From a virus, in the IMG/VR virus record IMGVR_UViG_3300017748_002087, positions 1 through 25,256 of that record: DNA of 25,256 bases, one strand, 5' to 3'. Both the position numbers and the translations under genes were made by a program. Below, piece after piece: positions 10,701-23,234 of this stretch. The notes below the pieces were generated by a model. It was not told where the DNA came from. It saw only the letters and a list, made by a program, of their open reading frames with translations, and did no database searches. Position 1 is the stretch's first letter; each line of letters begins with the position of its first letter.

Positions 10701-11261
10701 CTAGTAAACAGTAGGACTGTTAAGAATCCGACAGTATACCACGCAGTTACTTTACGTCTATCCAAGAAAATGCCACAGCTTTTTGAGGCTTGGTCAGAGC
10801 AAGTTGTTCTTGGAACAGGAGAAGCAGGTGAGGGTAAAGGGGCAATAGTATACGGTAGCAGAACCTATGATGAACTAGGTAACGACTACAAACTAAAAGA
10901 GGTAGCTCTAAGAAAGTTTGTTCAAGAAGCTGTAGCAAATGAAGTTGCTATCGTAGAAAAAGCTTTTGAAGATTTGCTTACCAAGTCACCTCAAGCTGCT
11001 GTTGGTTTTATTAGGAATCAATATGCTTTTACTGAGCAAGAAATGATTGATAAAACTAAAATGAAAAACATCTATGATTACTCTGCACAACAACTAGCTA
11101 AAGAAGACGGATCATTCTATGCAAACGCAGGTGAGTATATAACTGATACAAGTAACGTAGCTGTAGAAGTAATTAGAAGACAAGAGATAATGTCCATTGC
11201 TAGAGCTATAGCAGATGGATCATCCAAAGCTGTTCTCTCTGAGATACGAAAAAACCCCTAG
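7758..11261 (+). CDS. Very large internal virion / DNA-ejection protein candidate (1167 aa)
   Basis: It has an acidic helical N-terminus (residues 1-100). Two Gly/Ala-rich hydrophobic stretches follow: about 112-135 (IGAIASSPSTAATVATGGWG) and about 185-242, ending in ATIGSVVGGATSAFG. These could insert in membranes. A long basic helical region (~245-450), a central part with AANAFTSGFNTFLDISDQFW, and a hydrophobic 'GAAMLMGGVYLAAQ' segment (~745) follow. Size, amphipathic Gly/Ala segments and position as last gene of the virion block fit the large ejection protein of podoviruses (T7 gp16-like role). The transglycosylase domain that T7 gp16 carries is here on a separate gene at 5373. Function is inference. 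The TAG stop lies inside the terminator hairpin. Confidence 0.72.
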   Translation: MSNYLEKVKDKEFISLKDDSDFQDDLIRFFTGDRYNYSREELLEKGAEGLTEDFITHMRYQAANEVTALKDLQYVQDRENVSDQELESFGNLMNAFDHSGEVGTGVLDGAKDFIGAIASSPSTAATVATGGWGVGSKLAARGATKAAQLAIRSQIDDLIKKGLGKKAVKEAVQKSVLTEGAYGAARSAAFEGAIGTAIGYSRGETREEVIEGYEYDTTDLALDAALSATIGSVVGGATSAFGQRAKNKAADALSNVAFKEKSAKTRAKNAAEKTIKQKRRSPNLKKATDQSLELFKNLAVREQTELLQKTKPKLNPLDVDLVKRGQTLRSQLLQTGVEDTEVTPGLSLNTLKGITAATMDLIDKVKPSKGERITSAVARFMSTNKNIKEIEKIKKKYGLSSEDFSLIYLADLSEAGKKLNEASQISKKLKSATPMTKAQQQIDDILLNIKKLNDSRLTTFNDNFAQSIISNAIKNKGGKVGTVLNMAKELDSARIAFMTSQVGTTAANAFTSGFNTFLDISDQFWKGLLTGEAVQRGWTKGVFANLRGMTLSKDEAIILKEMMLKEQPIAYRNLFHDVQRAETTIESNSILSQAGRFVNTLNSGVDAIFKQSMLYAGVDRRLRQQGRTFAEFIESGQTIEKGLPPGLLQDAIEDAQRFTFQQTYAGDKSAYGRLVKGVVKAHREAPFIISGALGIPFPRYIANHLEYINDYTPIGLVTGGLSGLESQLYKGTKYKTWQDKTARQISGAAMLMGGVYLAAQKQGELDYGSVETISGGTVETGRVAGPFAAHLLLGDLIYRFFNGLPIKNMGEDSLEVALGMGDLGFDFSLVKDIKDSVRTGEFTVGFEKRAGNIVSTFTYPATIARDIKAQLDIEAAGSPFTRPIIPGDEGKVSDFGERNFLMDILQSEYIAAQSARFLPDTDFFQYADSFNGKNDIKIYGGFNERATGSINPLTKQIGFREDPPLNKLQKEMNILKVEEYELVNSRTVKNPTVYHAVTLRLSKKMPQLFEAWSEQVVLGTGEAGEGKGAIVYGSRTYDELGNDYKLKEVALRKFVQEAVANEVAIVEKAFEDLLTKSPQAAVGFIRNQYAFTEQEMIDKTKMKNIYDYSAQQLAKEDGSFYANAGEYITDTSNVAVEVIRRQEIMSIARAIADGSSKAVLSEIRKNP

Positions 11262-11276
11262 CCGAAACTAGGGGTT
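11249..11276. terminator. Shared hairpin terminator at the convergent gene ends
   Basis: Perfect 9-bp inverted repeat AACCCCTAG (11253-11261) and CTAGGGGTT (11268-11276) with a 6-nt loop. On the minus strand it is followed by six Ts (complement of A 11249-11254), a good intrinsic terminator for leftward transcription. On the plus strand there is no adjacent T run, so rightward termination would be weaker or rely on convergence. Each arm contains the TAG stop of the gene arriving on its strand. Confidence 0.88.
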
Positions 11277-20350: not shown

Positions 20351-20474
20351 TTACCGTATCCCTTTCTTTTGATCTTCTCTTTTCATCATCGTCTAAAGGA
20401 CGTATCTCTTTAGATATTCCTTTGCGTCTGTCAATATACCACTCCTTTGGTTTATTACAATAGTCTTCAGTCAT
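20310..20474 (-). CDS. Small basic protein upstream of primase, unrecognised
   Basis: A 54-residue protein from ATG 20474 (8-nt overlap with the preceding gene), rich in Lys/Arg and Asp/Glu: KEWYIDRRKG, PLDDDEKRRSKERD. An in-frame ATG at 20528 would overlap the preceding gene by more than 60 nt and is less likely. The end overlaps the primase start by 41 nt, so one of the two boundaries may be misjudged. I see no known family; the charged composition would suit nucleic-acid or protein binding. Confidence 0.55.
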   Translation of the reverse strand: MTEDYCNKPKEWYIDRRKGISKEIRPLDDDEKRRSKERDTVNERISKGSGKREQ

Positions 20475-20691
20475 GACTTGTATAAATCTTTCTTGCTTTT
20501 GGTGGAAAGGTTTCTTGATTCCATCCATTTCTTACTTGCTCTGCTGCCCAGGAGTAAGTGATAGACCAATACCTTGAAGCCTCTGCTACACTAATAAAGT
20601 CTTTACCATAGAGTCTGCATTCTTTCTGCTTTTGTTTCTGTGTTGGTTCATACTGAATACGAATGTGTGATGGTTTATCTTTTGGTTGCAT
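20467..20691 (-). CDS. Small protein with HTH-like segment
   Basis: A 74-residue protein from ATG 20691 (TGATG overlap; a GTG at 20694 is also possible). The middle, YGKDFISVAEASRYWSITYSWAAEQVRNGW, resembles a helix-turn-helix with the start common to excisionase-like DNA-binding modules (S-V-x-E-A-x-x-x-W). The N-terminus is Lys/Gln-rich. DNA binding and early regulation are possible; the match is short and by eye. Confidence 0.6.
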   Translation of the reverse strand: MQPKDKPSHIRIQYEPTQKQKQKECRLYGKDFISVAEASRYWSITYSWAAEQVRNGWNQETFPPKARKIYTSHD

Positions 20692-20885
20692 CACTCGTTG
20701 CCTATATTCTTTGGTGCATAGACTTCACCATTGTATTGGCTACCAGTCTCAGTGTCTGCTCCAAAGTTACACCATGCTAAGATAACTAGGATTGCCATGA
20801 TCCAGTAGAATGAAACCTTACACCACTTGATAAACCCTTCAAATGTTTTCTTTGCTTCTATCTCTGCTGCTTGACTTGGTGTCAT
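20691..20885 (-). CDS. Small single-pass membrane protein
   Basis: A 64-residue protein with one strong hydrophobic segment, FYWIMAILVILAW (about 27-39), between a charged N-terminus (EAKKTFEGFIKW) and a polar C-terminus. GGAG lies 9 nt upstream of the ATG. It overlaps its neighbours by 1 and 4 nt. I do not recognise a family; host membrane interference is possible but unproven. Confidence 0.68.
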   Translation of the reverse strand: MTPSQAAEIEAKKTFEGFIKWCKVSFYWIMAILVILAWCNFGADTETGSQYNGEVYAPKNIGNE

Positions 20886-21373: not shown

Positions 21374-22162
21374 TTAAAATAATCTCAGTTGAACTGGTGC
21401 TTGATACACCTGCTCAAGTCTTGGATGTAACACTTCACTAAACTCAATGTCACAAAAGTTACCACAGTCAGGCATAATCATTTTCTGATTACGTCCTTCA
21501 TCAGGGTGTAGTTCATCCAAGAAAACATTTCTAATACAACTGTTGCCTACTTCTCTTTCAGCTTCAGCCATCTTTTTAAAAATTTCTGGAAAGTCTTTTC
21601 GTATTTTATTCCAGTAACCTTTACCACCTTTGACACAGCCAATACAGTTATTGTTACCATACCCTAGCTTGTACATCTCAGGACGTTTGATCCCTTGCCT
21701 CTCTAAATAGAACAGACACTCAGGTTTATTCATCTTCTGTTCAATTAAAGGGAACAAAGGTTTCGCAGCAGGATACTGTTCTTGAAAACGTATGGCTCTG
21801 TTTACTTCTTTCTTTGTGTACTCAAAGCCAAACACTTGAGCACTATACTTCTGCTCACGTTCAATCTTTTGACGGACTTTCTTTTTAAGAACAAGAGTAC
21901 ATCTTGCTCCCCCCGGTCCGTTCACATACTTGTCTTTGAGGATAACATCAAACTGATCTTTGTATTTTTCTGGTGCTCTGTCTACAGTAATCTCTTTACC
22001 GTACCACTCTTCACACTCTTCTTTGAACCTGTCATTATCTGGATGTGCACTATCAATAGCAAAGTAGATAGGTTCTACATTCTCTTTACCGAACTCGTCC
22101 ATAGCTAACTTAGTTGCTACTGCACTAGTTACCCCTGCACTCCACCAAGAAATAATTTTCAA
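21374..22162 (-). CDS. PP-loop (PAPS reductase-like) protein
   Basis: A 262-residue adenine-nucleotide alpha-hydrolase family protein. The N-terminus SWWSAGVTSAVATKLA is a PP-loop variant, YFAIDSAHPDNDRF the following strand-helix, and cysteine sites lie at GARCTLVLKKKVR, GNNNCIGCVKGGKGYW and CGNFCDIEF. The C-x2-C could carry a thiol or metal site. The start is TTG at 22162 with AAGGAG 7 nt upstream; a two-codon ORF (ATGACTTGA) overlaps it. Phage members are often labelled PAPS reductase. Sulfur transfer to DNA (DndC-like), RNA or a nucleotide is an alternative to sulfate reduction; the sequence does not decide. Confidence 0.82.
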   Translation of the reverse strand: MKIISWWSAGVTSAVATKLAMDEFGKENVEPIYFAIDSAHPDNDRFKEECEEWYGKEITVDRAPEKYKDQFDVILKDKYVNGPGGARCTLVLKKKVRQKIEREQKYSAQVFGFEYTKKEVNRAIRFQEQYPAAKPLFPLIEQKMNKPECLFYLERQGIKRPEMYKLGYGNNNCIGCVKGGKGYWNKIRKDFPEIFKKMAEAEREVGNSCIRNVFLDELHPDEGRNQKMIMPDCGNFCDIEFSEVLHPRLEQVYQAPVQLRLF

Positions 22163-22597: not shown

Positions 22598-22816
22598 TCA
22601 TCTATCCAAGTCTTCTCCTTTTCGCATCTCAACAACATAACTCTCCCCATTAAGTTTTGCTATGCCTTGTACTGCACTATCAACTCCCTTCTCAAAACCC
22701 TCGTCAAAAGCATCCGATATGTCTTCGTTATCGTGGTACTTTCTATACAAAAATCCTGCTATAAAAGATAGCACAGCTACAAGTACAGTTATCGGTTCTG
22801 GTAAAAATACAGTCAA
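22598..22816 (-). CDS. Small single-pass membrane protein (72 aa), TTG start
   Basis: TTG 22816 overlaps the previous stop as TTGA, with AAAGGG 7 nt upstream. A membrane helix at about residues 9-24 (ITVLVAVLSFIAGFLY) is followed by an acidic stretch (DNEDISDAFDEGFEKG) and a polar tail. Topology is N-out or N-in undetermined. No family recognised. Early phage membrane proteins of this type often alter host membranes or exclusion systems. Confidence 0.65.
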   Translation of the reverse strand: MTVFLPEPITVLVAVLSFIAGFLYRKYHDNEDISDAFDEGFEKGVDSAVQGIAKLNGESYVVEMRKGEDLDR

Positions 22817-23031
22817 TGATAGACCCTTTCTTTTTTATTTTGTTGCCAAGCTAGGTAGTCTTCTTCTAATAGACCGTGATGTTCCATAAACTCTTGCAAA
22901 TCTAAGACTTGGTACAACAAAGATCTATTACTGTCTACAATCCTGCGTACAGAGGGTTTAGATTTATATAGTTTAAGAACTTCACGCAGCTCAGAATCTG
23001 ATAGAGTCCAGTACTCGTCTTCGTCTTCCAT
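22813..23031 (-). CDS. Small helical protein, first gene after the 23.1-kb regulatory gap
   Basis: A 72-residue protein starting at ATG 23031 with TAGGAAG 5 nt upstream. It is acidic at the start (EDEDEYWTLSDSELREVL) and then helical (SVRRIVDSNRSLLYQVLDLQEFMEHHGLLEEDYLAWQQ). It lies just downstream of an AT-rich regulatory gap, so it is the head of a new leftward unit. No family recognised. Confidence 0.65.
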   Translation of the reverse strand: MEDEDEYWTLSDSELREVLKLYKSKPSVRRIVDSNRSLLYQVLDLQEFMEHHGLLEEDYLAWQQNKKERVYH

Positions 23032-23041
23032 AATCTTCCTA

Positions 23042-23103
23042 ACTTTAAGTTATACTTTAAGTATTCTAATAAAAGAATAGAAATAAAAGAAATAACTTTA
23101 AGT
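23042..23103. repeat. Three ACTTTAAGT 9-mers in the regulatory gap
   Basis: Exact copies at 23042-23050, 23054-23062 and 23095-23103, plus an imperfect ACTCAAAGT at 23134-23142. The 9-mer is itself an odd-centred palindrome. Spacing of the first two is 12 bp, roughly one helical turn. They could be repressor or activator half-sites or iterons. They lie within a leftward transcription start region. Confidence 0.7.
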
Positions 23104-23146
23104 AATACCTATAGTATATACATATAGGTATTGACTCAAAGTTATT
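23091..23146. promoter_or_regulatory. Large AT-rich palindrome (operator/origin candidate)
   Basis: A left arm 23091-23113 and right arm 23123-23146 are reverse complements except for one mismatch and one extra base, with a 9-nt loop. The inner 10 bp AATACCTATA / TATAGGTATT is perfect. In RNA transcribed leftward the mismatch becomes a G-U pair. The region 23032-23168 is very AT-rich; TTGAAA and TATACT elements on the minus strand could be promoter boxes, but spacing is not convincing. An origin or operator is possible. Confidence 0.6.
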
Positions 23147-23168
23147 TCAAGTAGGTCATACTGTCACA

Positions 23169-23234
23169 CTATGACAGAACGATGATCAACCAAATTAAAA
23201 TTGATACACCTACAGCTACAAGATCAGTAGCCAT
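23169..23234 (-). CDS. 21-residue membrane peptide
   Basis: ATG 23234 is preceded by a strong ribosome site (AAGGAG, 7 nt upstream) and runs to TAG 23171-23169. After MATD the peptide is almost wholly hydrophobic (LVAVGVSILIWLIIVL), long enough to span a membrane once. It is flanked by non-coding DNA and followed by a hairpin, CTGTCA-5 nt-TGACAG (23161-23177), whose loop contains the stop. The excellent ribosome site argues for translation. No family can be assigned to so short a sequence. Confidence 0.6.
   Translation of the reverse strand: MATDLVAVGVSILIWLIIVLS

Follow-up and report, generated by a model that had tools for sequence, protein, structure and literature searches.

A 140-bp non-coding element at the head of the leftward replication-side operon of the window (the whole 25,256-bp IMG/VR fragment analysed here) consists of short two-fold-symmetric sites arranged in two arrays. 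On balance, it is probably an array of DNA operators through which a putative trans-acting regulator coordinates this operon and the structural operon. The marine phage from which the window derives is close to Roseobacter phage CRP-9: the ribonucleotide reductase (RNR) gene is 80.7% identical to that of CRP-9 at the DNA level, the primase-helicase is 71.6% identical, and the gene order is the same. Judged by primase-helicase similarity and gene order, the phage belongs to the CRP-9-type roseophages. In CRP-9 and CRP-13, structural genes of the HMO-2011 type are joined to a cobavirus-like replication module (PMC8528129), and HMO-2011-type phages have been described as a dominant marine group (PMC9038755). 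The features of the element and its surroundings are listed in Table 1.

Table 1. Features of the control element and its neighbourhood in the window
Feature	Position	Strand	Basis or remark
Complete control element, from the upstream box through the palindrome (left array) and the spacer to the right array	23032..23171	-	Leader of leftward gene 22813-23031
21-codon membrane-peptide gene MATDLVAVGVSILIWLIIVLS	23172..23234	-	Shine-Dalgarno-like sequence; similar mini-ORFs in relatives
Upstream box GTGTGACAGTATGACC (in relatives GTGTGACAATCTGTCA)	23154..23169	-	By-eye alignment with relatives; activator-like position
TACTTGAAA box	23145..23153	-	Kept in class-1 relatives; putative promoter role
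TTGAAA, candidate -35 inside the TACTTGAAA box	23145-23150	-	Putative
TATATG, weak candidate -10, 18 nt from TTGAAA	23121..23126	-	Putative; sequence reading and comparison with G010
Palindrome (left array of dyad 9-mers)	23089..23148	.	Sequence reading, inverted repeats I2 and I10, fold energies
9-mer ACTCAAAGT (relaxed copy)	23134..23142	.	Motif search
9-mer ACCTATAGT (relaxed copy), 12 nt from next site	23107..23115	.	Motif search
9-mer ACTTTAAGT	23095..23103	.	Motif search
Spacer separating left and right arrays	23063..23088	.	Sequence and relatives
9-mer ACTTTAAGT, right array	23054..23062	.	Motif search
9-mer ACTTTAAGT, right array, 12 nt from the 23054 copy; adjoins Shine-Dalgarno of gene 22813-23031	23042..23050	.	
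Gene next downstream of the element, heading the replication-side operon	22813..23031	-	Orthologs in 49 loci

The initial annotation had placed a 56-bp palindrome at 23091-23146, in what it called the only long leftward gap. The gap is present and shorter than supposed: about half of its 260 bp is occupied by the membrane-peptide gene and its leader, and the non-coding element proper ends at the Shine-Dalgarno sequence of the first operon gene. The palindrome is also real, and extends two bases farther on each side. On direct reading, its arms span 23089-23113 (25 nt) and 23123-23148 (26 nt), previously noted as 23 and 24 nt, with the single mismatch and the single bulged base (23133) that had been described. 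The mismatch becomes a G-U pair in leftward RNA, as had been pointed out, and the minimum free energy was -36.4 for the leftward and -32.0 for the rightward strand. The fold had a z-score of about -5 on either strand, none of 200 shuffled sequences was as stable, and in a motif-free, G+C-corrected fold scan the palindrome was the most extreme position of the whole window (z -5.7). Its ungapped palindrome score of 10 lay within the simulated maxima of 9-11 for 25 kb and was unexceptional at the scale of the window, and the case for the palindrome therefore rests on its gapped structure and its conservation.

In the close relatives L001 and L032, 139 and 138 of the 140 positions of the element were identical, respectively, while the neighbouring coding sequence was only 86-89% identical; the binomial probability of such identity is approximately 7e-8 to 8e-7, assuming 13% divergence. 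The one arm change in L032, at 23142 (A to G in the leftward sense), would give a G-U pair in leftward RNA. Unconstrained substitutions across both arms, which the initial annotation had named as evidence against a function, were not seen in these relatives, whose arms were almost unchanged. The palindrome is thus genuine and under strong constraint. Its occurrence in related phages, which had been proposed as a check, held for the close relatives, where it was nearly identical; the distant ones replace the sequence while keeping the dyad sites and the layout, and in most relatives the arms are shorter and imperfect. A nucleotide search of named phages with this region returned AT-rich chance matches only.

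Comparison of 25 non-redundant elements gave a two-fold-symmetric 9-mer, ACYNNNRGT, as the repeat unit, with the flanking consensus TACTNNNAGTA; this pattern was picked after the data had been seen. The interval between successive 9-mers was 12 nt in 38 of about 70 cases. Mismatches between the arms concentrate at the NNN centres, where 69% of positions were matched against 88% in the core, a contrast that is partly built into the definition of the pattern. The 9-mer reported three times near the palindrome was found in three exact copies, together with two relaxed ones (Table 1). The relatives show that the real unit is the arrays of 9-mers: a left and a right array, separated by a spacer, are placed at a sigma-70-like promoter or immediately downstream of it. 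The long palindrome of the window is a left array whose symmetry is locally almost perfect. In many contigs, elements upstream of the replication operon, as in the window (class 1), run from the stop codon of the mini-ORF through a box near GTGTGACAATCTGTCA, TACTTGAAAT and, frequently, TATAACTA to 9-mers, an AT-rich spacer and further 9-mers; most of these relatives have 124-128 nt between the box and the start codon. Differing hydrophobic mini-ORFs of about 21-27 codons were found at the same position in most scorable relatives.

Elements of class 2 lie upstream of the structural operon, in the divergent region. In many relatives they directly follow consensus sigma-70 promoters (TTGACA-N17-TATAAT in L192 and HMO-2011), and TACTTG-N17-TATAAC is common in class 1. 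The arrays that follow promoters have 16-30% G+C. Regularly spaced short dyad repeats at promoters, the arrangement by which an operator array would be recognised, were found, with the promoters taken from the relatives. A consensus sigma-70 scan gave no site in the element of the window; the weak TTGAAA-N18-TATATG is the most that can be drawn for its own group, and if this is a promoter, the palindrome would cover the promoter itself. In class-2 regions such as those of L192, L200 and L148, the array is followed by a conserved stretch, TTTTNTGTNGTYC, and then by a second promoter, TTGACT-N16-TACAACTA, which has a 9-mer in its spacer and lies very close to the gene's start codon.

Arrays were present at both places in CRP-9, CRP-13, G001-G004 and G006, and in the shorter contigs G007, G008 and G010. 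G005 had class 1 alone, possibly because it is a fragment. Strict clusters, with at least four 9-mers in 150 bp, numbered one to three per genome, and the second site of some genomes was found through a pair of 9-mers spaced by 12 nt; clusters and 12-spaced pairs were close to zero in second-order Markov copies of the genomes, and isolated pairs also occur elsewhere (G001:3469 and G007:122). In the motif-free fold scan, exactly these two loci ranked first in CRP-9 (54961 and 5161) and CRP-13 (54201 and 3401). HMO-2011 has an array at the structural operon at least. In the cobavirus CRP-4, both operons have arrays, which share a word peculiar to this phage, CTTAAAGGATA, and the arrays of HMO-2011 and CRP-1, which follow a strong promoter, are built from related yet different words (ACTTAAGTG and ACTTTAAATGT). 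Across 11 genomes, class-1 and class-2 arrays, which are non-homologous, shared more 7- to 10-mers within one genome than between genomes (p 0.0002-0.006; weaker, p 0.002-0.07, when CRP-4 was left out). Such sharing is what a single trans-acting reader of both sites would predict.

In the operator-array model, each 9-mer would be a two-fold-symmetric site for a protein dimer, and the sites, mostly every 12 bp, form two arrays flanking a spacer of about 25-30 bp. These arrays would overlap the promoter of the leftward replication operon and extend a little beyond it in the downstream direction, and a second set, outside the window, would be found where transcription of the structural operon begins. 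One phage- or host-encoded factor would occupy both sets in a cooperative manner, might bridge the two arrays, and would control or time the transcription of both operons by host RNA polymerase.

The first gene of the structural operon in HMO-2011-type and CRP-9-type phages, here called gR (84 amino acids, HIPRSDVFYVR; 901-1152 in L147 and its orthologs), was found in 427 contigs. It is conserved in HMO-2011, CRP-1, CRP-2, CRP-9, CRP-13 and others and lies directly behind the class-2 array, a position that would suit an autoregulator. Searches with gR gave no family match, no solved relative and no convincing fold match (all-helical AF2 model of moderate quality, pLDDT 62-69), and a sequence search of CRP-4 did not find it. 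For these reasons, gR was set aside as an established regulator and kept as a candidate; a host protein is equally possible as the reader of the arrays. The window gene at 20467-20694, which looked excisionase-like by eye, was rejected: Pfam gave no match, and neither CRP-9 nor CRP-13 has the gene.

P2 Cox, 186 Apl and lambda Xis act at multi-site operators at or beside promoters, which are read cooperatively by these small DNA-binding regulators. The Cox boxes, Apl sites and Xis sites resemble the present arrays in having several short repeats about one helical turn apart next to a promoter. On the other hand, the units described here are dyads in themselves, have a period of 12, form two arrays around a spacer and are duplicated at a second operon. 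No Pfam match to a Cox-, Apl- or Xis-like protein was obtained among the small genes tested. Ribbon-helix-helix operators, such as the MetJ met boxes, the omega heptads and the ParR/parC repeats, place short dyad or repeated boxes in tandem across a promoter or beside it; this arrangement is alike, and the unit length and sequence differ. A Pfam search of the small window genes tested gave no ribbon-helix-helix gene. Operator arrays of phages are of a known kind, and the set in these marine phages appears to be undescribed: neither promoters nor repeat arrays of this group are mentioned in PMC8528129, PMC9038755, PMC6918029 or PMC12753301, and a wider, incomplete literature search was also blank.

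The initial annotation had offered a replication origin, an operator or an attenuator. The operator is the best supported of the three, by the dyad repeats, the constraint, the promoters of both operons and the motif shared within genomes. A transcription-coupled origin, in which a host-RNA-polymerase promoter would fire into the AT-rich dyad array, unwind it and prime a T7-like polymerase, so that the arrays would be two origins, is unlikely. The succession of a promoter and AT-rich arrays, the iteron-like repetition of the sites and the location of one array just upstream of the operon for the primase-helicase and polymerase would all suit it, and the same succession is seen at the T7 primary origin, in a phage that likewise has a T7-like polymerase and primase-helicase. 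However, no RNA polymerase is annotated in CRP-9, in contrast to T7, and the repeated dyads and the two copies at operon starts also differ from the T7 origin. The GC-skew minimum of CRP-9 falls at the class-2 region, but skew extremes coincide with points of divergent and convergent transcription and are therefore unspecific, and none was found at class 1. No initiator gene was recognised, and two copies, each at the start of an operon, suit transcription control better.

A device in the leader RNA, with the hairpin of the leftward transcript serving as an attenuator, a processing site or a put-like antitermination signal, is quite improbable. The hairpin within the leader is strong, the element stands at the start of two long operons, as does the structured put RNA of HK022, and both departures from symmetry in the close group (the native mismatch and L032 23142) become G-U pairs in leftward RNA. 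The outer arms of L098, L107 and CRP-13, moreover, differ in sequence yet stay complementary, with G-U pairs, and an RNA role is possible in this subgroup. However, 25 elements showed no energy bias for the sense strand (mean z difference +0.32, s.e. 0.25), arm mismatches were 29 G-T and 35 A-C on the sense strand, and RNAalifold predicted no pairs for 14 class-1 relatives. A search for a G+C-rich stem with a T run gave no leftward terminator-like site at the palindrome, and there was no Rfam match. The repeats are dyads of the DNA type and, in contrast to put RNA, conservation at the RNA level was not detected. These results disfavour the attenuator, and RNA structure was rejected as the main explanation. 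It is very improbable that the element is a site for cruciform extrusion, recombination or packaging, such as a resolution site or one recognised by terminase, that lies at operon starts by chance: the long inverted repeat and its equally good structure on both strands fit such a site, but the two copies are tied to operon starts, the arms are reduced in most relatives, and a cruciform has no need of self-dyad 9-mers in a direct 12-bp register.

With its consensus and both of its genomic positions defined, this control element is concrete and open to testing, and it offers a way to find the factor that reads it, in HMO-2011-type and CRP-9-type phages, an abundant marine group. Recombination between replication and structural modules has shaped this group, and matched drift of the motif would also show how a chimeric phage puts two modules under one regulator. 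It is conceivable, if rather improbable, that the matched arrays form a two-locus switch tying transcription to replication, in which one factor would sit on both arrays and perhaps hold them together, promoter firing would prime replication, and the arrays would follow as its specificity drifts. If so, specificity and arrays would have drifted together across an abundant marine phage assemblage.

Several other features of the window were observed. The replication-side operon includes a gene with a PAPS-reductase domain (21374-22162, minus strand), which was found in 27 IMG/VR contigs with 69-100% identity. A G+C-rich hairpin, AACCCCTAG...CTAGGGGTT (11252-11276), lies between the convergent structural and replication operons and is probably a bidirectional terminator. 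Adjacent genes for a PfkB-type sugar kinase (truncated at the window end), a cupin and an NAD-dependent epimerase occupy 1-1837 on the plus strand and probably constitute a phage-borne surface-sugar cluster.
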